Shown one piece after another: positions 396-39,003 of a DNA stretch of 64,000 bases (position 1 is the first letter of the stretch; each line of letters begins with the position of its first letter). The DNA lies in the NCBI GenBank assembly GCA_030248135.1, contig JASANC010003917.1:1-64000 (forward strand), written 5' to 3'. The DNA comes from Theristus sp. LFF4_11. Taxonomy: Eukaryota > Nematoda > Chromadorea > Monhysterida > Xyalidae. The position numbers were made by a program, and so were the translations under genes. The notes under the pieces were generated by a model that was given only the letters and a program-made list of their open reading frames with translations, was not told the origin of the DNA and did not search any database.

Positions 396-1439
396 TAGGG
401 TTAGGGGCTTTGAAAAAAAATTTTTTTTTATTTTTTTTTCGTTTTTTTTTAAATTTGGATTTTTTTTCAAATTTAAAAAAAATTTGAAAAATTTTTCTTC
501 TACTTTGCTCTGAAAATTCGATTTATGGCATAATTTTTTGAAAGTTCAAACCAAATTTTCTTCCTAACTTTGTGTGCTTAGGTAAATGTCATTATTTGGT
601 CATTTTGACCGACGTACTCCATGTTTTTCGATTTGGATGACTTCTAGAGTCAATTTTTAGCGTTGAAATGACTTAACTGAATTGAAATATCGTTTCAGAA
701 ATCGTTTTCTTGCAACTTAGAACACGTTTTTCAGTCGGTAGGCCATGAGATGAACATGATATCTTGTTGATTGGCGTATGTTATAGGTCTACAATGGAGT
801 TGTGCGATATATTGTTAAACAATTGGAGCGGAGATGTTGGTTAATACCACATCACACGACCGTTTTTCAGATACCCGATAACATGGCCACATGTTAAAAC
901 TTGCGTGCTGAGCTAAACTAACGTGTTAAACTTGCGTCTGTCAGTTGCCCGCAACGTGATCGCGAAATCATGGTACGTGTTTTCGATACGATGATTTGAA
1001 GAGTGGGCTTTTTTGATTGAATGCTCTCGCCATGTGGCAGATAGCATGGCTGGTTGAACCTGAAAGTAAGTGTCTTGGGGGGGGGGCGACCGGGTCGACA
1101 GGGGTTGCCGACTTAGCTACAGCAAACAGGAATTTTTGAACACAGTCAAATTTTGGTAATTTTCTAAAGAGGAACAACTAAGAACGGTTCAATATTCAAG
1201 TACACGTCGAAAATTGTCCTGTTTTACTGTTGAAAATGCAACTTTCCCTCTATGAAATGGACATAATTTCAATAAAACACGATTTTCGCTCTTATAGTTT
1301 TCCGGATCGTTCTGAAAATAGTCCAGATGAACTCAGCTCGACGAGACGCTTCGAACAAACCTAACTTGTAAAATAAAAATTTAAAAAATTTTTTTTTTTT
1401 TAATTTGAAAAAAATCCGGATTTTTTTCCCCTAACCCTA
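396..1439 (+). mobile_element. Non-autonomous hAT-like element, family A copy 1
   Basis: The 1044-bp element begins TAGGGTTAGGGG and ends with the inverse CCCCTAACCCTA. It is flanked by a perfect 8-bp direct repeat TGCACACG (388-395 and 1440-1447). Eight-base target duplications with T/CA-R-G-rich inverted ends are the hAT superfamily signature. There is no transposase frame, so it must be mobilised in trans. The interior is A/T homopolymer-rich near the ends. A second copy lies inverted at 39025-40029. The terminal sequence resembles telomere repeat TTAGGG. Confidence 0.88.
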
Positions 1440-1532: not shown

Positions 1533-2669
1533 GGCCTTTAACAAAACCACGGAGGCAACACGGAACACGGAGGCTGCACGCTTAACAAAACCACGGAGGC
1601 AACACGGAGGCTGCGTGCAGCTAAAGTGACCCATATTTTACATGCACACAACACGCTGCGCACCTTTAACAAAACCACGGAACACGGAGGCACGCGGATT
1701 TGGGGAGATTTGGGGACAGGACAAATCCGTCCCCCTCCAAAAAAATTATGTTTTTGTTAAATAAACAAATAAATAAATAAAGGCGCAATAAAGCAAAGCA
1801 AAGCTAAATGTCAAAACTAGACTTCAAGGATTACGGTAGCTCTCTAATGGGTCTCGACACGATTTTTTAAAAACGTTCTTTTATTGCCAAGAACTGTTAC
1901 TAGAATGGTGGATACCGTTCACATGATTGCATGAAACAGTCATATGTCTGAAGTAAGGTCCCACGGGTTACGGTAGCTGTAGTTCGGTCTTGACACGAAG
2001 TTGCTGAAAACTACTTTGCTTCTTGCGAATAACAGTTGAAACCATTTAGAAACACGCAGCGTTTTCACAAAATGTCAAAACTTGAGTTCAAAGAATATGG
2101 TAACTCTGCTGTGTGGGTCTCGACGCGATTTTTTTAAACTGCCTTTTATTGCCAGGAAAATACTAAATTGATGAACACCGTTCACATGATTGCAAGAAAC
2201 AACTGTTATTCACAAGAAACAAAGTAGTTTTCAGCAACAAGTAGTGTCAAGACCGAACTGCAGCTACCGTAACCCGTGGGACCTTACTTCAGACATATGA
2301 CTGTTTCATGCAATCATGTGAACGGTATTTTTTAAGAAATCGTGTCGAGACCCATTGGAGAGCTACCGTAATCCTTGAAGTCTAGTTTTGACATTTAGCT
2401 TTGCTTTGCTTTATTGCGCCTTTATTTTATTTATTTGTTTATTTAACAAAAACAAATTTTTTTGGAGGGGGACGGATTTGTCCTGTCCCCAAATCTCCCC
2501 AAATCCGCGTGCCTCCGTGTTCCGTGGTTTTGTTAAAGGTGCGCAGCGTGTTGTGTGCATGTAAAATATGGGTCACTTTAGCTGCACGCAGCCTCCGTGT
2601 TGCCTCCGTGGTTTTGTTAAGCGTGCAGCCTCCGTGTTCCGTGTTGCCTCCGTGGTTTTGTTAAAGGCC
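1533..2669. mobile_element. Fold-back element with ~0.5-kb inverted arms, Mutator-like
   Basis: The 1137-bp element starts GGCCTTTAACAAAACC and ends with its exact complement. A 9-bp direct repeat GATTTTTAG flanks it (1524-1532 and 2670-2678). The two arms are nearly identical over several hundred bases, differing by a few indels, and carry subterminal direct repeats of ACAAAACCACGGAGGCAACA type. Long arms plus a 9-bp duplication fit Mutator-like (MULE) or Foldback elements. No transposase is encoded. It lies 61 bp upstream of the CCPG1-like start codon, so it occupies that gene's promoter or 5' UTR. Confidence 0.85.
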
Positions 2670-2730
2670 GATTTTTAGTTTTAATACGGCAGGTAGACAC
2701 AGAATAGAAACTAACAAAAAACGAAGGCAA

Positions 2731-5700
2731 ATGTCTGAAAGTACGCCAGCGTCGATAAGATCTGAAAATGAAGACGAGCAATTGCACGAGGAAACCGCCG
2801 AGGTCGAGGATGAACGGCGGGGAGGCGGCGGCGATTCTGGATCGGAAATTTCAGACGGCGAATGGACGCTTTTGAACGATCGCGGCACGCAGATAAAGGT
2901 CTGTGTGTGGTTTGGTTGTGTTCAGTACCGAAGGCGAAAGCAAATTTTCGAGGGGGGGGGGGTGTCGTCACGTGGGGGTTGGGGGTAGGGGTGGTAAAAA
3001 ACGGTTTTTTTCAAATCCATGTATATAAAACGGTTTTTTATACCGCGTCCGGTTCTTTATACCCGGTTTTTTTACCGACCCAGTATCTGAAGAATCTTGT
3101 GATTGCGACAATTTCTGGTACTCTGATTTTACGCAAACCGCTGAATAATGAGTAAAAGACCACAATTCTAGCCAGAAACTGTATGTGTTTCAATGGAAAC
3201 GTATTCCAATCTTGATTTTATTTGAATCGGTGGCGCTTAGAGAGAATGCAGCATCAGAAAAATTATCAGATGCGAGTTTAAAACAAAAAAAACTAACGCA
3301 AGACAGATTGACATGTGCAACAGCAAGGTATGTGATACATGCAAATCAATTGAACTGACACGATCGAGAGATATGTAACTGCACAATAATTTCACCGCGT
3401 TTCTAAATAAAAGATCACCGAAAGACAAAAAGAATCACGAACCCGCACAGACGAAAGAAGTGAACCAAGAACAAAATTGAAAGAGCAAAAAAATCAGATG
3501 GAGATTCGGGTCACTATCACCAGTACAACAGCACGAAGACATCACCAACAAAACTTTGAGCAATTTCCGAGTTCAAAGACACAAAATTTCAGGAAATTTG
3601 ACTGAATAAATATCACCCATTCACCCGATTTTTGTCTATTCATCATCATCATCATGAGTATCATCAATGCAGCCGTCACCATCATCATCAGTGAAGTCGT
3701 CATCAGAGCTGTCCACACAATTTGCCGATGCAAGCGCAGCAATGTTCTCAGTGGCAGCAGCTGACGCTGCCGACGGGGACTGCGAATCCGTGCTGTCGCA
3801 GTTTGACGGCAACGATTCCGTGCTGTTGCCAGCAACACTTGACACGGGTCTCAGGGTGCTTTACTTATACCAAGAGCGTGAATTGTGTTCTCCGGAACAT
3901 CAAGTTATGAAGTGGCGAAAATGAAAATTGAAATGGATATGCGGAATACAGTGCATTTTGAGTGATTTCAAAAATTGAAATTTGGGTCTTTCGGCGGTAT
4001 AAAAAACCGAAAAAAAAACCAAAATTTACGCGGTAAAATATCGGTAATTTATTTTGGCCATTTTTTGGCGCTGGTATAAAAAACCGTTTTTTATACCGTT
4101 TTTTATACCGAAAAAAAACCGTTTTTTATACCGACCCACCCCTAGTTGGGGGTGCCGAAAATTTTTCAGTGGGGGGTGTCAGTCATGGTACAGTGACACC
4201 CCCCCAGGCGTGGGCCATGGGGGGGGGGTGCACTATTGTAGAAAATTTTCTGGGGGGGGGGGGTGCACACCCCCCACCCCACCCATGAGATTTTTTCGCT
4301 TAAATTTTGAAGGAAAAACGCTAAATTTTGCTGCAAAATCTTTGAAATTACAATGAAGAATGTCAAGTTATCATATATTTAGCTAATATTATAGACTTTA
4401 AAGACAAAAAATCATGATTTTTGAGCAAAAATTCATGATTTTTGGGTGGTCCGAGAAAATTTTTGGGGGGTGTCACTGTTACTTAGGTCCATCTAGGGGG
4501 GGGGGGTGGGGGGGGTGTCTAGCAAATTTCGAGGGGGGGGTGTGGATGGTCCAGTGTCAGGTTTTGGGGGGTGGGTGTCGCGTGACCCCCCCCACCCCCC
4601 CACGCGGAGGTCTCGGGTGCTCTGGGGGGGTGTGTACCCCCCACCCCCCCTCGTCTTCGGTACTGGTTGTGTTGAGATGAGACTAGAGATGTCAAGAAAA
4701 AAAATTTCTATTTTTTTTCTGTTAAAAAAAAAATTTTTTTTTAATTTCTTTTTTTAAAAATGAAAGTTGTTCAGAATTTTTCAGGGAGTCCGAATATCAC
4801 CATCTGAGGAGCCACCGACTTACCATATGACCCCCACTCATATGGGAGGAGGGTGAAAATTTCAGACTTGGTTTCGGCGACCCCATTTTCCCACCGACGA
4901 CATCACGTCTCGTGTTTTGCCTCTCAATTCACCTCAAATAACATGGAAACAAGTTCCACAACAAACCGGTGTGATCATGCTGACGACACGAGGCGAAACA
5001 GCAACGAGCAACCAACGAAGTTACGCTTGCAGTGGCAGACAGTGCAATTTCCACCTTTCGAGATCCTGAAAAACGATGCGTAAATGTGAGTTCTCTGCTT
5101 CTATCTCACCTTAGCGACATCGGAATTTGTTGAACTAGCCTTTGCGACGCTCAAGTACTTCAATGCGCGAGTCGATCATCACTCACCAAGGCTGAAAACA
5201 GTCGATAAATCAATCCAGAATACCACCTGCAGCGTTGAAGACTAAGTGACAAGGTAAAGTCAAAGAAAATTTTTGTTGAACTTTCGAAAAATTATGCCAA
5301 AAACGGCATTTTCAGGGCACATTAAAGAAAAAATTTCAAAAATTTTTAATAAAAAAAAATAAAAAAAATGCTCATTTTTTTTACTTTTAAAAAAAATTAA
5401 AAAAAAATTTTTTTTTTACCCTTACATCTCTAGATGAGACCGTTTGTGTGTGATAGTTAGTTATGTCCACAATGTTATCTTGTTTCACAGGAAACCCCGG
5501 TGCAAACGAACACGCCAGCGAGTTCAACGGCAGTGGGTCAATGGAGCAATGAATCGGAGGGGGTCGGGATCGCTTTGGACACATGCTCCGATGTTGATGT
5601 TGCAATCGCGTCAAATCATCAAAAAAATGGCGAAGAACAAAGTCGTGTTCGAAGGTCAGGTGTTGTGTTTTCATGTGATTTCCGGTCTTGTCACTTGACG

Positions 5701-8700: not shown

Positions 8701-11700
8701 ACACAGTTTGGAAAGTAAAACGACTTGGCAAAACATGCTTATCGTTTGCAAATTGGTGGTTCAGTCGGTCTCCACACGATCGTTGACCTGGATTGTGACT
8801 GCAGTGTTTCGCTATTATTTTTGATTTCGATTGCGAAATTTCGGTTACTTTTGTGCGCAGCAAGTGCACCAGATGGAGCTGACCGATCTGCGTCGTCGTT
8901 ACCACGCGTGCGCGCAATTGGAGCGAACGTGCGCAGCGCATGAACGACCTTCAGACGCACATGGCTTGCAGTCGTCAGCCGCCGCGTGCACGAACGATCT
9001 GGAAACGTGCAAACACGACATGAGATCATTGGTGCGGCTTTTTGAGAATCGAAATTGTGGAAGGGAAACAGCTTGCCTCGGGTTGAAAAGCCGATCTTGT
9101 TTTGCCTTAACAACGGTGCCGATGTTCTGGCCCAGCAACGAAATGGTGATTGGTTTTCGTGCGAATATTACTGTCCAATAAACGCCGCTGACGCTTGAGC
9201 TCCTCAGATTCAGCATGTAGTGAGCGCACGTTGGAATTGAAACGCAGTGTGTGGATGTCTTGCGACTGGACGAGAACAGACTTGTGCACTGTGTAAACGG
9301 CCAGCCACTCAGCGTGTGTGCGTTGAAAACTATCACCAATAAGAACAACCCACTCCCGTGCAGGATCAAATGGTACAGCGTACGAGCGCGTTGAATCGTC
9401 TCATTCTGAACGAGAACGCTGAGCAACGAGCGACGATGGAGCAGTACAGCGAACAGTTGAGGCTGGCGAATGACGTACCGCAACGGTTGAGGCGTGCCAT
9501 TCAGACCGTGCATCAGACGCTCGCGCACAAGGTACGCCACGTTCCTGGAAACCTGTCAAATTGATTAGCGGAATGCAGGGCTCGCGAAGAAAGAACGGCA
9601 TAGGACTTGGAAAAAAGACGTATTTTGACGCAAATGTGGCAAAAACGGCCAAACCGTTCAGGAAATCTCGCGCACTCCGTAAATTGTGCGGCAAAAGCTG
9701 ACCGGTTTGAAGAATACACACATTGTGGTAGAAGAATGCTAGAACTCTGGACAGTTGGAATGTGGCACTGTAGCCCCAGACCCTCTCCCAGAGCAACTAT
9801 AATTGTACCTGGCCTTTTAGTCTTGTTTATTTAGGTTTGTCTTTCAATTCCCATATTTCCACCATTTTTTGTTAGTTCAGTTTTTCCGAGAGAAAAAAAA
9901 ACTTTGCAGATCGACAGCGTTGCCAGCCAGGAGCGCGCAAGCGCATCCGCACAGGAGGCGACATTGCGCCAAATCATCGCGCAATTAGAGGCAAACACGC
10001 ACACGCTGCGCCAGGCGTTGTCCGCTGCGGAGCGGAGGAGTCATCAGTTGCAACAGGCGTTGGTGGTGCAACAGCAACAGTGGGACAAGGAAGCAGGTGG
10101 ATGATGGGTGGGGAAGTGGTAACTGAATGGGGTAGCGGAGACCCAATGAAAGAGAGATACAGTTTGGATTTTGTTTCCAGTCAAGCAAGGTTTTCCACGT
10201 TTTACGAACGTGATTTTTCATCATAGGTTCGTGAATTCGATTTGATGTCACATCTTCCAACAAACACACAGGCACACCAGTCCAGCAGGCAATGTGTAAT
10301 ATATATCGCGTGTAAAAGTTTGTGTTGTGTTTGTGTGTAAAAACAGACGCTCACAAAATTTCGCAATTTCTTTATTTCAGACAACAGCGACAGCGGGGTT
10401 CAAGAAGATCCACTTGAGCAGCCAGAATCAACCGCGGATTCGTTTGAAAGCTCACCATGGGACGATTGGCATCTAGATCTGGTGTTCGAAAATGCCACCG
10501 AATTTCTGTCCGCCTCGTTTGAGACGGTGCGACCGAAAGTGCAACGGATTGTGGAACAAGCCACGGATTCGGCGCGTAAAGGCGTCGACAGTGTTGGTGT
10601 TTGTTTATGGTTTTGGTTTTTTTGGTTTTTTTAGGTTTTTATAACTTGCTAACAAAGAATCAATAACGAAAGCATAAAACTGCGAAATTAGATTGAGCCT
10701 TCCGCATGTGAAAATAAAAAAAGAATTGTGTGAAATCTGACAAAAATTCAGTTTTTTTCTTCAAATGTGAAAATAATCAAAAAATTCGCGCAATTTTGGT
10801 AAAACTTCGGTGCACCCTCCAAATCTGTGCAGTTGCGCCGCGAGCATCTGCCGGCGGTGGAGCGTCGGCTGAGCGAGTTTGACGCTCAATACCGCGCGCT
10901 GACGGCGCAAGTGACGACCGCGTTGGCGCGCGTCTGGGCGGAAACAAGCGTCGCCATTGAACAGCAGACGCGAAACACCGCTTCCAAGGTGGGCGCAACT
11001 GGTTTGGTTTGGTTTCAATATTCAAAATACGGCTTGTATTGGTGTTTATCTTGTTTCAGTATTCAAAATAAATACGATTTTATGCTCTCACTCCATCCAT
11101 ATGACGGAAGTCATTTGCTGTCAACCCGTTTACCGTTTCGCGCGTTTCGTTTTTTTTTCACAGCTTGTGTGTGTTTTACCAACTCGCAGGCAATCAGTAT
11201 CAGTGTGTTGCGGGACAAATCTGCTACGTTGAACTGTACGGTCGAGCTCTTAATATTGCGCCATTTTGTGCAATCAGAAATTTTAAATCTGGCACGCTGA
11301 TTTGTTGTCTTGAAGTGGCAGGGATCGGACCAACATGTGACTGTGAGCCCATTCGAAAAGCAGTCAGTTGGTTGATATATTGTAAGTTTGATGATGTGTA
11401 ATTGCTGTTGTACTACAACCTACATTTTGGCAGCTTTGTAATTTGCGTTGTGATTGACAATATTAGCCTTTTATTGTTTTCTGTTTATGGGGTCAGGTGT
11501 GAATGAGTGTTTTTTTCTTGTCGCGCAATTTTATCGGTAATTTGTTTGTTCAGTTGTTGTTCTGGGTTGTTGCCGCATGATGATTGCGCGTGAAACAATA
11601 GCGGAAACAAAAAAGCGTAATTTGTTTCGTTTGTCAAGAAGGTGTAAGTTTGAAGAACAGGAAATTGCAATCAAGTTGCGCGTTCAGTTTTTGAACGCAT

Positions 11701-29782: not shown

Positions 29783-33365
<3,583 letters not shown>

Positions 33366-34128: not shown

Positions 34129-34460
34129 GCAAAGCAAACAATGTTGTTGTTCTAACATTCTGGCTTTTGCAGGTGCGAAACTCAAAACGTCATTTTTTTG
34201 CTTGTTTTCAAGTATCATTGTGTCAATTCCACAACGAAAGGAAAATTAATTTCAACAAAAGCAAACATTTCGTTGTTTGATTGGAAATAAAGATTTATGC
34301 AGACTTTCTGTGTTGAATGTTGAACCCCAATAAAAAATAATGATTTTCATCTGTGAAGTATTCTTATTTAGAACTGTGCACATCCAAATGTTACCGCAGT
34401 TGATAATTTCATGGACAACTGGGTGATAGGCTCAAGCTTAGCTTACGCTTAGCCTTCAGG

Positions 34461-34544
34461 GCATTCATGAAGCAGTATTTAGTGACCGCGTAGCCATGTT
34501 ATAAGCTAAACAGCTACGCGTCACAAATACTGCTTCGTGAATGC
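34461..34544. mobile_element. Palindromic MITE (GCATTCATGAAGCAG family), copy 2
   Basis: Inverted ends GCATTCATGAAGCAGTATTT and AAATACTGCTTCGTGAATGC surround CGCGTAGC and GCTACGCG, forming a near-perfect hairpin. Confidence 0.8.
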
Positions 34545-35633
34545 CACTTTACTTCACTAACACCTCGCAACAAACCACCAAGCGAAAACTAGACAAAAAA
34601 AACTGATTTTATAGATGAGAAATTCGGAATCCTTAGTATTCATTTTTTTTCAGAAAAAAACATTTGTCTGTGACAGAAAAACGTTGGGCGTTTGTAAGAA
34701 CCTCACCGAAATGAAATAACTGGTCATTCTTTGGCCACTATTTTGGACTGATGGAACTATGAAAACGCACGCACACAAACGTATTATCCACAAAAAGTAA
34801 CAAACAAAACGAACTAAAAAAATGTACCCAAGGACAAAGGCCGAACAGTGAAAATCGCTGGGCTACGTAGCCCGCCAGCCCACCACGCCTTCGAATGCCA
34901 AAAACGGATGGAAAACGAAATCGAAGGAAAAACCAAAAACAATGAATAAAGATTACGCTTCAGCAGGCAAACTTCGAAAAAACTGACAATTGGCTACCAA
35001 GTGCGATGAAAAGAACAAGTCTGAAAAAAGAAAATAACGAACATAGAAATAGAATATTGCAGTGAATGCCAAACCAATTCATTTCATTTTTAAACGAGAG
35101 GTAGTGAAAAGGACAAATGTAATTAATTCAGAATTCTCGATTCAGAAAAATACACTACCTGGAACTATACCAGTTAACTTTGGGAAAACATCACACATCC
35201 ACAAACAGGCAACCAATCAAAATCGTTATCGAAAAAGCTAACCAATCACAATCACTAACCAAAATTACATTCAATCTCTACCAAAAAAAAATCAAACAAA
35301 CTGTTCGTTTGATTAAAAACATATTCAAAACAAACAAAAAACGACAAGATCTATGACAAAAGCACGATGAAGAAATCCATAATGAAAAGGGCCAGAGTTG
35401 GCACTGCCAACTTGGCAGGAGAATAAAAGGATTTGAAGAAAAAAACGCGTTGGCCCAGTGTGGAGGCCTTAAAGTTTTGCCTCAATGTTTTTATAAACTT
35501 TAAACCGGCTTAAAACCGGAAAACGGTTTTTGCCAACCCAAGAAACGACAACCCGACAATAGAAATAGAAAATCCATGATGAATCATACAAAAGTTTGCA
35601 AAAAACGTCAAACCACATTCGCTTGCGCCCCGC

Positions 35634-36981
35634 TCAATGCCACGTATTACGCCAGTTGTTGTGTTCGCCACGAATACGACGTACCAGTTGGATGTCTCTT
35701 GGCATGATCGTGACACGTTTGGCGTGAATGGCGGCCAAATTGGCGTCCTCAAAGAGGCTCACTAAATACGCCTCAGCGGCTTCCTGGCGAACAAAAAATA
35801 CGTTTTTTTCGTTTGAAAGTCTGAAAGAACGTTTTTTTGGATGCGCACAAAGCGGCATTCATGAAGCACCGTTTAGTGACCGCATCGCCATATTTTAACA
35901 CAGCTACGCGTCACTAAATACTGCTTCATGAAAGCCCATTTAGCCGTTACAAAGTGACTCGTGATTGTAAAATGCGGTTTTCGGAACACACATTTAGGCA
36001 AGCGCGCCACTGAAGCGCAGGCGGCAGCTTCAGCATGATTCATGAATGATGCAGCATAATCAGCACAGCCGCCGCAGCATTTCAAAAAGCTACATCACCT
36101 AAAAAACGCGATTCACAAGTGCTTCAGTTCCATCATTCATGCCATGCCAAATCTTCCACCTGCGTTTTCAGCGCGCGCGTGCTCAAAAACGTAAAGCGAC
36201 GTGAAGCAGTGCTGTTTTTTCAGCGTGAAATGACGCTTCAAGCTCCATGAATGGCGCTTTAGCATGGAAACAGACGCCTGTCACTGTGCTCATACGACTG
36301 ATAATGGCATTCAGTTGAAAAGACAAGACAACCAATTAGAAGGCACAAAAAACGATATGTCGCATTTCGCCTGTTGTTTTCACCTGCAACGCGCACAGCG
36401 CAGTCGCCTGAAAACGCAGGTCGCTCATGAAGCCGGTGGCGACCTCGCGCACCAAGCGGTAAAATGGACGATGCGGAATGAGTGTCTCCGTGGAGCGTTG
36501 GTATTTGCGAATCTCTTGCAGCACTCGCTGGCCTGCAACAACACAAAAACATTGCGATTTCAAACAAAAAACACAGATTTCGTAATGTCGAAAACCAAAC
36601 GCGCTTGAACAACGCTTTATTGGCGACATCTCTTCCAGTTCACCAGTTCACAACTCCAGGTACAGGGGACAGCGTGTTGCTTATTGGTGTTGAACGGACG
36701 GACAGCAGAGTCCCACGGCGTTGCACGCTCTTGCCCCCCCCCCCGCTTCGGCATGGACAATCCCAATGAGTGTAAACAGAAATTGAAGAAGCAACGAAAC
36801 AACACGAACCTGGCTTGTAGCGTTTCTTCTTCTGCTTCACTTTGTCGCGCCAATCTGGTGCGCGCTGCTCGCCACGCTTCGCCAGCAGCTGACGTTTGTT
36901 TTTTTCGGCGAGCCCATTCTTGAAAGCCGATGTCGACGGCGCTGGCAGCGTTTTCTTCGCCGTTTGCTTCGTTCGAGTCAT
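35634..36981 (-). CDS. Divergent, intron-containing histone H3 variant
   Basis: Three exons (36981-36810, 36532-36384, 35783-35634) join in frame to 156 residues, against 136 for canonical H3. The N-terminus TRTKQTAKK keeps K4 and K9 but changes A1, R8 and S10 (T, K, T). The rest of the tail is 13 residues longer. Aligning RQLLAK with KQLATK puts Q at K27 and R at S28. The histone fold is well kept ([54 protein letters not shown]) with loop 1 of normal H3 length and F84 and T107 retained. This argues against a typical CENP-A despite EAAEAYL in helix 2. Both usual helix-2 cysteines are Ala. The C-terminus extends past RIRGE with a Trp-rich tail. Introns imply a polyadenylated, replication-independent gene. 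Role unknown; CENP-A or germline H3 remain possible. Confidence 0.9.
35854..35935. mobile_element. Palindromic MITE (GCATTCATGAAGCAG family), copy 3
   Basis: GCATTCATGAAGCACCGTTT and its approximate complement flank a core with CAGCTACGCG. It lies in intron 2 of the H3 variant, about 70 bp from exon 3. The adjacent stretch to 36255 carries further ATTCATGAATG palindromes that may be older relatives. Confidence 0.72.
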
Positions 36982-37109
36982 TTTCGATCCTATGATCCAG
37001 CAGATCCACGTTTCAGTTCGTATTCGTTGATTTCTTTGTGTGTTCTTTGCCACTGTCTTTCCTGGAACGTGTGAAGTGAAGTGAAGTGAAGTGAAACGGC
37101 CAACGGGCC

Positions 37110-39003
37110 TAAAGCTTCATTACTAAAGCGCACGCGCACGCGGCATCGGCATGCTCATGCTCATGATCCACTAGCGCACGTGCACACGCTCCGGCCCCAA
37201 CAAGAACTTGTTTAAAACGCAATTGTTCTGACATCTTCCTTCTTAAAAAGGCTTGGCTTAGGTTAGGATTAGGTCAGGAGTGTGTTTAGCTTTGAATTAG
37301 GCTTTAGGATTAGGTTTTGGTTTAGGCTTGTTTAGGCAACGTCTGCCAACATCAGTGCTTTGATTTAGTACGACAGGCCAACCCAAACGGGTACTGTTAA
37401 AGAATCATGGCTACGTTACTTACAAATACGTTCAGTACCGTGGGGGTGCCGCCCTCGGAGTGCTACATTATGTTTATGAAAGAAATGCACATGCATACAA
37501 ATAAAATTGATTGATTGATTGATTGCATCTTCATCAAAAATCCATTCCACTGGCACGGGTGCAGCGGCTGCACACGCACAGCATTTATCCATCTGTGGGA
37601 AAGTGTCGGGAACCAAACTGTAAAACTTGTCGATGCGGAAAATGGATCAGAAAACAAACCAGAACAATGAACTGATTCCATTCATTATCAGTTTCTCTTT
37701 CAATTCACCTTTTTTTGTTCCGAAGGTTGTGAGTTCTGTTTGTCTGTTCCCTCTTCTTCCACTTTCGTTACTTAATTGTGTTGTGTCTTTGTGTACTGCA
37801 ACCAATTTCACGGACTGCCGTTGTAAATTTCCTTGATTGATTGATCGATTGAGTCAAAAAATGCATTGAGTTTTGAACGACGTTGGTAGAAAATGGATTC
37901 AAGTTTTCAAAACAATCAACTTCCAATTCTGATTCTGTCGTTTCAATGAAGAATGAGCATTGACTTTTGAGCACCAGTGATGAAAATGGGCTTTATTTAT
38001 GAAGATTGACTAAAATCAATTTTCAGTGATATTTTGCTTGTCTCTTGTGCAGCCCCGTTTGTTCAGTTTAGAGATCCTCCGAATTTCGTCTGCGATTGCT
38101 GCGTGTTTAGATTGGCTGCTGGGTTGGGTTTGGATGTTCCCTGAGTGAGTTTGGCTGCCACAATTTTTTTGATGATGCACAAAGTTTCGAACAACCGATC
38201 GAAACGTGCGTCCAGAAATTTTTCGTCGTGGTAGCCTGGTGCAACCACCAATTAGCGTGCTAGGTTCGTTTTTCATTTGTTTTCTTGGCCAACCAATCAG
38301 CGTGATCGATGCTCGTTTTCTTATTTGTTTTCTGGGCTTCCCAATCAGAGCGCGATCAACCAACCGACCATCATTTAAGTTTCCTGTTTATGGTCATCAT
38401 CGTGGTCTTGTGCAACCAATCACCGCGTCACTTGTTTGCTTTTCTGGGTCAACCAATCAGAGCGACCTTTCGCCATTGGGATCGCGGGCAACGGCCGAAA
38501 GCACACGAATGGCGCCGCTTTATTTTCAGCTTCTTCACCACGTTCCTTAACTCAAGAAGTTGCAACATGGAACTGCATTTTCTTTTCTTTGATTGAAAAA
38601 TTAAACGAATGAAAACTTAATGAATTGGCTGCTACATCTTTCTAAAACGTCTATTTCTATTTCTAAGGCGTGATTGCTTATAATTCACGCTCTGGTTTTC
38701 TTTCTGCTGTTTAGTACAAAATATTTCTTTCCCTATACTTTTCTAAAAACCGACACACTCGTTGTCGGACATTGCTAAAACGGACCTAGTTCTAAATCCT
38801 AATCCTAAAGCCTAATTCTAAGCCTAACATAATCCAAACCGAATCCTAACCTAAGCCAAGCCTTTTCAAGAAAGAAGATGTCTGAACAATTGCGTTTTGA
38901 ACAAGTTTTTGTTGGGGCCGGAGCGTGTGCACGCGCGCTAGTGGATCATGAGCATGAGCATGCGGATGCGAGGTGCGCGTGCGTTTTAAAAAAGAAGCTC
39001 CAG
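37110..39003. mobile_element. 1.9-kb element with ~230-bp inverted ends
   Basis: Sequence from about 37112 to 37345 (GAGCTTC-like end, GCATGCTCATGCTCATGATC, GCTCCGGCCCCAACAA, GGCTTGGCTTAGGTTAGGAT) returns inverted at about 38780-39003 at high identity. The interior (37430-38790) has no transposase or other recognisable frame. A target duplication could not be identified, so the class is open. Its right end abuts the 8-bp duplication of the hAT copy at 39025. Confidence 0.68.

Follow-up and report, generated by a model that had tools for sequence, protein, structure and literature searches.

Gene A, on contig JASANC010003917.1 of the nematode Theristus sp. LFF4_11, raises the question of what kind of histone a diverged H3-type gene encodes: a variant of general chromatin, the centromeric H3 of its lineage (CENP-A or cenH3), or a decaying copy. 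An earlier note, made from the letters alone, had favored a novel H3 variant and left the centromeric alternative standing. Within the 64,000-nucleotide (nt) stretch analyzed here (the window), we read positions 34500-38500 and all reading frames, and we searched the rest of the assembly and protein databases. These sequences are best read, it appears, as an H3 variant made independently of replication and with a mark code partly of its own.

Gene A is an intact three-exon gene of predicted H3 type

Gene A runs from 36981 to 35634 on the minus strand and encodes an H3-type protein of 156 amino acids. The exact exon model bears out the gene, its coordinates, and the two introns described earlier. 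Both introns are GT-AG, and the frame is intact across the three exons. The features are as follows.

36810..36981, minus strand: exon 1, 172 nt; N-terminal tail up to KQKKKRYKP plus the first base of a Gly codon; from the ORF, the splice donor GTTCGT, and an exon match in the same genome.
36533..36809, minus strand: intron 1, 277 nt; phase 1 within the Gly of KPG; codon and phase as in the genome's own H3.3 gene.
36384..36532, minus strand: exon 2, 149 nt, as long as exon 2 in paralogue B and in H3.3; alpha-N, alpha-1, loop 1, and the start of alpha-2 (elements named from the homologous parts of H3).
35784..36383, minus strand: intron 2, 600 nt; phase 0 between ALQ and EA; position as in H3.3.
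35849..35941, no strand assigned: small MITE-like palindromic repeat within intron 2; related copy at 34459-34551.
35634..35783, minus strand: exon 3, 150 nt including the stop; remainder of alpha-2, loop 2, alpha-3, and the C-terminal tail.

The palindromic repeat family of intron 2 is also present on contig C1199, at 8890-8985 and 32923-33018.

The Pfam histone profile PF00125 matches exon 3 at 61.6 bits and exon 2 at 46.7 bits, over a cut-off of 26.4, which places the predicted protein in the histone H3 superfamily. Its best sequence matches in the PDB are H3 chains (142.5 bits). Among the ten long ORFs of the window, none scored over the Pfam cut-off, and two gave weak matches below it. 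A protein search with the tail of A alone returned three candidates, none at an E value of 10 or less.

A diverged paralogue, gene B, lies on contig C1199. Pairwise comparison of A with B (NG86) gives a dS of 0.768 and a dN/dS of 0.138 for the fold, and a dS of 1.29 and a dN/dS of 0.271 for the tail (29 of 53 aligned columns identical), values that place the pair under purifying selection; as pairwise estimates, they are also compatible with one of the two having lost its function recently. Given the intact frame, the GT-AG introns, and a paralogue with this fold dN/dS, gene A is a genuine gene and not a chance ORF. Neither ratio is near 1, the value by which the earlier note would have recognized a pseudogene. 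One could still suppose that A is decaying or not expressed, as it evolves faster than B (end branches of 0.17 versus 0.08 in the LG+G4 fold tree and 0.20 versus 0.055 under the mixture model). However, both genes retain intact frames and splice sites, and both pairwise ratios are low, so that we regard decay as extremely unlikely.

A and B share their gene structure with H3.3

A PF00125 profile search of the 159-Mb assembly (3744 contigs) gave 47 matches. The H3-type genes comprise ten full-length canonical H3 genes, which lack introns and fall into two types, and two partial ones, together with one H3.3 gene that has introns (C2018), A, B, and a cenH3-type gene on contigs C1344 and C2364. 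A, B, and H3.3 have their two introns at identical codons and phases, and exon 2 measures 149 nt in each, which suggests that A and B originated when an H3.3-type gene was copied at the DNA level. The fold is identical at 78 of 94 positions between A and B, 67 of 94 between A and H3.3, and 69 of 94 between B and H3.3. Intron 2 of the H3.3 gene (locus L009) is GC-AG where A and B read GT-AG.

In an Infernal scan of 13 loci, the histone 3' stem-loop was found just behind seven of eight canonical H3 genes (five over the gathering score and two below it) and, at locus L002, only behind H4. For A, B, H3.3, and both copies of cenH3 the scan listed no such element (RF00032), with L010 and L032 covered up to an E value of 5. 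A and B thus appear to share with H3.3 the combination of introns and no detected stem-loop that marks replication-independent genes. The introns in common with H3.3 and the missing stem-loop together support the earlier suggestion of replication-independent expression and point to an H3.3 derivative.

A and B are nevertheless not H3.3 itself by a strict sequence definition, that is, a near-invariant protein with A87, I89, and G90. Residues 87/89/90 are T/L/C in A and S/L/C in B. A differs from the H3.3 of this genome in its rebuilt and longer tail, the loss of ARKS around residues 27 and 28, Cys for G90, Pro for R63, Tyr for Q68, Ala for T107, and an added Trp-containing C terminus.

We also considered a segmental duplication as the source of the pair. 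Comparison of the window, which is 64 kb of a 216-kb contig, with all 87 kb of C1199 returned the exons and further matches, the longest of about 1 kb, with no collinear run of genes, and this candidate was rejected. The matches outside the exons are read as dispersed repeats.

Several other features of the assembly came to light. The nematode telomere repeat TTAGGC is carried by the assembly, with 3752 forward and 4220 reverse exact five-unit matches and none for the repeat spelled backwards. TTAGGC arrays are very numerous; on C16 (10305-12415) they form interrupted blocks across about 2 kb, and they also occur on other contigs. The H4 Cys73 and the H2B start are what we take to be nematode states. 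A search for COX1 found nothing, and neither SL1 nor SmY turned up among the 50 of 43697 and 56 of 30766 candidates scored, respectively, in searches where the controls gave no signal either. Three H2B variants have H3-tail-like tails (L023, C3303:92500-94500, at 615-1091, minus strand; L003, at 571-1098, plus strand; L004, at 2391-2900, minus strand). One begins MARTKGRPPK, and the other two, which adjoin the second canonical H3 type, contain ATRKQLAVKT (compare PRKQLATKA of H3).

Relatives of A and B occur in other nematodes

A protein search with A, of which the best 120 of 7990 scored candidates were listed, returned mostly ordinary H3s together with P0076 from Toxocara canis and P0079 from Syphacia muris, both with an A-like tail start and KKRRxKPG. 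A search with A, B, P0076, and P0079 (best 120 of 7991 scored candidates listed) added fifteen more. This makes at least 17 relatives among the matches listed, which is not a census: 14 are from named nematodes and three are unnamed proteins. Second models of Brugia and Wuchereria genes (P0153 and P0158) were excluded from the counts. Syphacia, Gnathostoma, and Toxocara belong to the Spirurina by NCBI taxonomy, as presumably do the remaining named relatives. The database labels are H3, H3.1, H3.3C, or none. Judging by these matches, proteins of the A/B kind are already in the protein database in other nematodes, under H3-type labels or unnamed, and the proposal that the variant was new to its lineage does not hold. 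Among the papers listed by our literature searches, none was recognizably about an A/B-type family of nematode H3 variants.

Like A and B, the Spirurina proteins (P0076 of Toxocara, P0136 of Parascaris, P0079 of Syphacia, those of filarial worms, and others) have the ten-residue tail start, KKRR[YF]KPG, LL[IM]P, V127, the Ala at 110 seen in A, and, in two gene models, the intron positions. Residue 110 is Ala in all 17 listed relatives and Cys in B. Further states of A and B recur among 16 relatives: P63 in all 16, V127 in 15, K42 in 14, R46 in 13, and Q49 and R56 in 12 each. The models P0153 and P0158 carry extra residues exactly between KP and G and between ALQ and EA, which are most plausibly introns, placed as in H3.3, that were retained in the models. 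The predicted structure of the Toxocara relative (mean pLDDT 69.5) finds H3 chains, though with a query TM score of about 0.38, and is of little help here.

The Spirurina proteins differ from A and B in loop 1, which is three (16 proteins) or four (one protein) residues longer in all 17 listed relatives and not in A or B. They also have an xFGR-like C terminus in place of HNNWRNxW, Leu54, and Phe120. On tail start, KKRRxKPG, P63, V127, and tree position, A and B would belong to this nematode H3-variant family; they lack the longer loop 1 of its listed database members, and we therefore file them as a putative short-loop sister branch. Functions may differ between the two branches, given this difference in loop 1.

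Phylogenetic trees included all of the 17 relatives but P0146, hence 16, and the full-length H3 set consisted of 15 rows picked from the matches. In the fold-only tree under LG+G4, A and B plus the relatives separate from all H3s and cenH3s with support of 94.5/91, and A and B pair at 93.4/94; under the mixture model, the grouping with the relatives receives 77/84. Full-length trees without cenH3s set A, B, and the relatives apart from the 15 H3s at 99/95 and 99/96.7. The fold-only AU test rejects none of the alternatives: A and B with the H3s (P = 0.155), with the relatives and all cenH3s (P = 0.146), with the genome's own cenH3 (P = 0.197), or with H3.3 (P = 0.148), or the relatives with all cenH3s (P = 0.147). 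At full length, constraining A and B with H3.3 gives a P value of 0.09 or 0.025 depending on the column filter, and constraining them with 14 of the 15 H3s gives 0.147 and 0.171. The grouping of A and B with the relatives, which draws on tail plus fold, is therefore likely rather than proven.

These data also bear on whether A and B could be a recent, lineage-specific derivative of H3.3 that came to resemble the other nematode proteins by convergence. Such an origin would fit the loop 1 length, in which A and B differ from all 17 listed relatives, and the fold-only AU test does not reject A and B with H3.3. Against it stand the many states in common (Lys8 in 17 of 19 members, K42, R46, Q49, R56, P63, and V127), the 99/95 full-length support, and the A-B synonymous divergence of 0.77 in the fold, which speaks against a recent origin. 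We consider convergence very unlikely.

The tail keeps K9 and, except in B, K4

The mature tail of A begins as the earlier note described, with A1T, R8K, and S10T and with R2, T3, K4, Q5, T6, A7, and K9 kept. It is also 13 residues longer than that of H3.3: RYKPG of A is preceded by 52 residues, RYRPG of H3.3 by 39. The proposed changes of K27 to Gln and S28 to Arg are found in those columns of A in the MAFFT alignment, but at K27 the residue of B is Lys, so that K27Q is peculiar to copy A and no trait of the pair.

The same note had held that the protein could be marked at K4 and K9 but not at K27. Across A, B, and the 17 listed relatives, this stands as a family trend: K4 is present in 18 of 19, K9 in 19 of 19, Lys8 in 17 of 19, and a tail ARKS in none. 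B is the exception at K4. It has Thr at this position and has also lost R8 and T6, with frame and splice sites intact. Tail marks would thus not be conserved within the A/B pair, and on sequence grounds B shows K4 to be dispensable in at least one copy.

In the fold, the earlier description is largely accurate: A retains Phe84 (LRFQ) and a normal loop 1, with seven residues between VRE[IV] and LRFQ as in H3.3, has Tyr in place of Q68 (as does B), has Ala96 and Ala110 in place of the helix-2 cysteines, and ends in an added Trp-containing tail. It erred at residue 107, said to be Thr: A reads FEDANL, with Ala107, and B likewise has Ala107. H113, R116, and D123, which take part in histone pairing, are also kept in A, as is most of the fold that faces H4. 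Residue 90, Cys in A and B, is Ser, Leu, or Thr in 16 tabulated relatives.

The genome has a separate cenH3-type gene

The cenH3-type gene that the earlier note had proposed to look for is present in two near-identical copies, C1344 and C2364. They differ at 6 of 330 nt in the fold exons, and their flanks have diverged to 92 to 97% likeness; the copies may be alleles, or uncollapsed haplotypes. In our alignment their fold has Q68S, F84W, T107S, and a loop 1 longer by two residues. The introns lie between SRV and VREV, different from A and B, and between LQE and AS. The gene probably has a long acidic tail, to judge by ORFs that lie upstream of the present gene model.

PMC4359364 gives as marks of CenH3s an extended loop 1 and the loss of three residues (Gln, Phe, and Thr); it prints the Thr as 118, and we took 107 as meant, since human CENP-A keeps Thr118 in the alignment. 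The genome's own cenH3 has all four of these features, and A and B have two. Their loop 1 is not extended (seven residues) and F84 is present, whereas Q68 is replaced by Tyr and Thr107, which we assume to be the residue printed as 118, by Ala. A as the main CENP-A was accordingly set back, the same assembly holding a gene with all four diagnostic features. We had also tried the ranking of PDB matches as a way to tell CENP-A from H3 and dropped it, as H3 chains likewise come out on top for the fold of C. elegans HCP-3, a CENP-A/CenH3, and for the genome's own cenH3.

The separate cenH3 weakens the idea that A is the centromeric H3 of the lineage; in its favor remain the replaced Q68 and T107, the aromatic C terminus, and the extended loop 1 seen in the relatives. 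The check set by the earlier note, a separate CENP-A gene together with a tree position apart from CENP-A, turned out in favor of an H3 variant: A and B do not group with the own cenH3, though the fold-only AU test does not reject that grouping. We infer that A and B are not the main centromeric histone; their expression, incorporation into nucleosomes, and mark readout are likewise predictions.

A more limited centromeric role can be proposed, in which A and B are a second centromeric histone: a duplicate of H3.3 recruited to the kinetochore, with an aromatic C-terminal tail meeting the CENP-C motif, much as the hydrophobic tail of CENP-A does in other animals, and with C1344/C2364 as a parallel, faster or meiotic cenH3. 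Like human CENP-A and the own cenH3, A and B have lost Q68 and T107, and a hydrophobic C-terminal tail is common to them and human CENP-A. The longer loop 1 of 17 of 17 listed relatives and the aromatic residue near the C terminus in A, B, and 13 of those 17 point the same way. The CENH3s of plants likewise begin with ARTK and have LLIP and a Trp at the C terminus. According to PMC7475651, the C-terminal tail of CENP-A, which is hydrophobic, is the part that CENP-C motifs contact, so that the aromatic C terminus of A and B counts in favor of a centromeric role. Meloidogyne reportedly has two old CenH3 lineages, of which the conserved one is used in mitosis (as cited in PMC9577544). However, A and B retain F84, and their loop 1 is no longer than that of H3; Q68 is retained in 15 and T107 in 11 of the 17 listed relatives (107 is not Thr in the other six); a gene with all four features is present in the same genome; and the trees do not join A and B with the cenH3s. 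In C. elegans, moreover, a long CENP-A tail is required for KNL-2 binding (PMC8259991), whereas the tail of A and B is short and H3-like at its start. We regard a second centromeric histone as possible but doubtful.

A broader version appears unlikely to us: that nematodes keep, beside a canonical CenH3, an ancient second H3-type histone derived from H3.3 that has K4/K9-type marks, no K27 motif, and an aromatic C terminus acting at the kinetochore, and that would serve as a hybrid of centromere and chromatin histone on holocentric chromosomes. CENP-A has been mapped by ChIP in Ascaris, according to PMC8065839.

An old nematode H3 variant is the preferred reading

We think it probable that A and B belong to an old nematode family of H3 variants that arose when an H3.3 gene with introns was duplicated at the DNA level and whose proteins, most likely, replace H3 in nucleosomes outside S phase. 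With H113, R116, D123, and the H4-facing fold kept, A should pair with H4 and, through the H3-H3 contact, with itself, and the fold of B may do the same. G90 matters for H3.3 chaperones, and with its change to Cys, loading would probably follow a route other than the standard H3.3 one. The tail would offer K9, and K4 except in B, in an H3-like context, with no ARKS around K27/S28.

If the family is a general chromatin variant, nematodes would have a conserved, replication-independent H3 able to carry K4/K9-type marks and with no K27 site for Polycomb to read. If it is centromeric, nematodes would have two ancient centromere histones that differ in build, and this would bear on how holocentric chromosomes are specified. 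The presence of A and B beside a full cenH3 in one genome means that the chromatin and centromere readings may be separable by localization.
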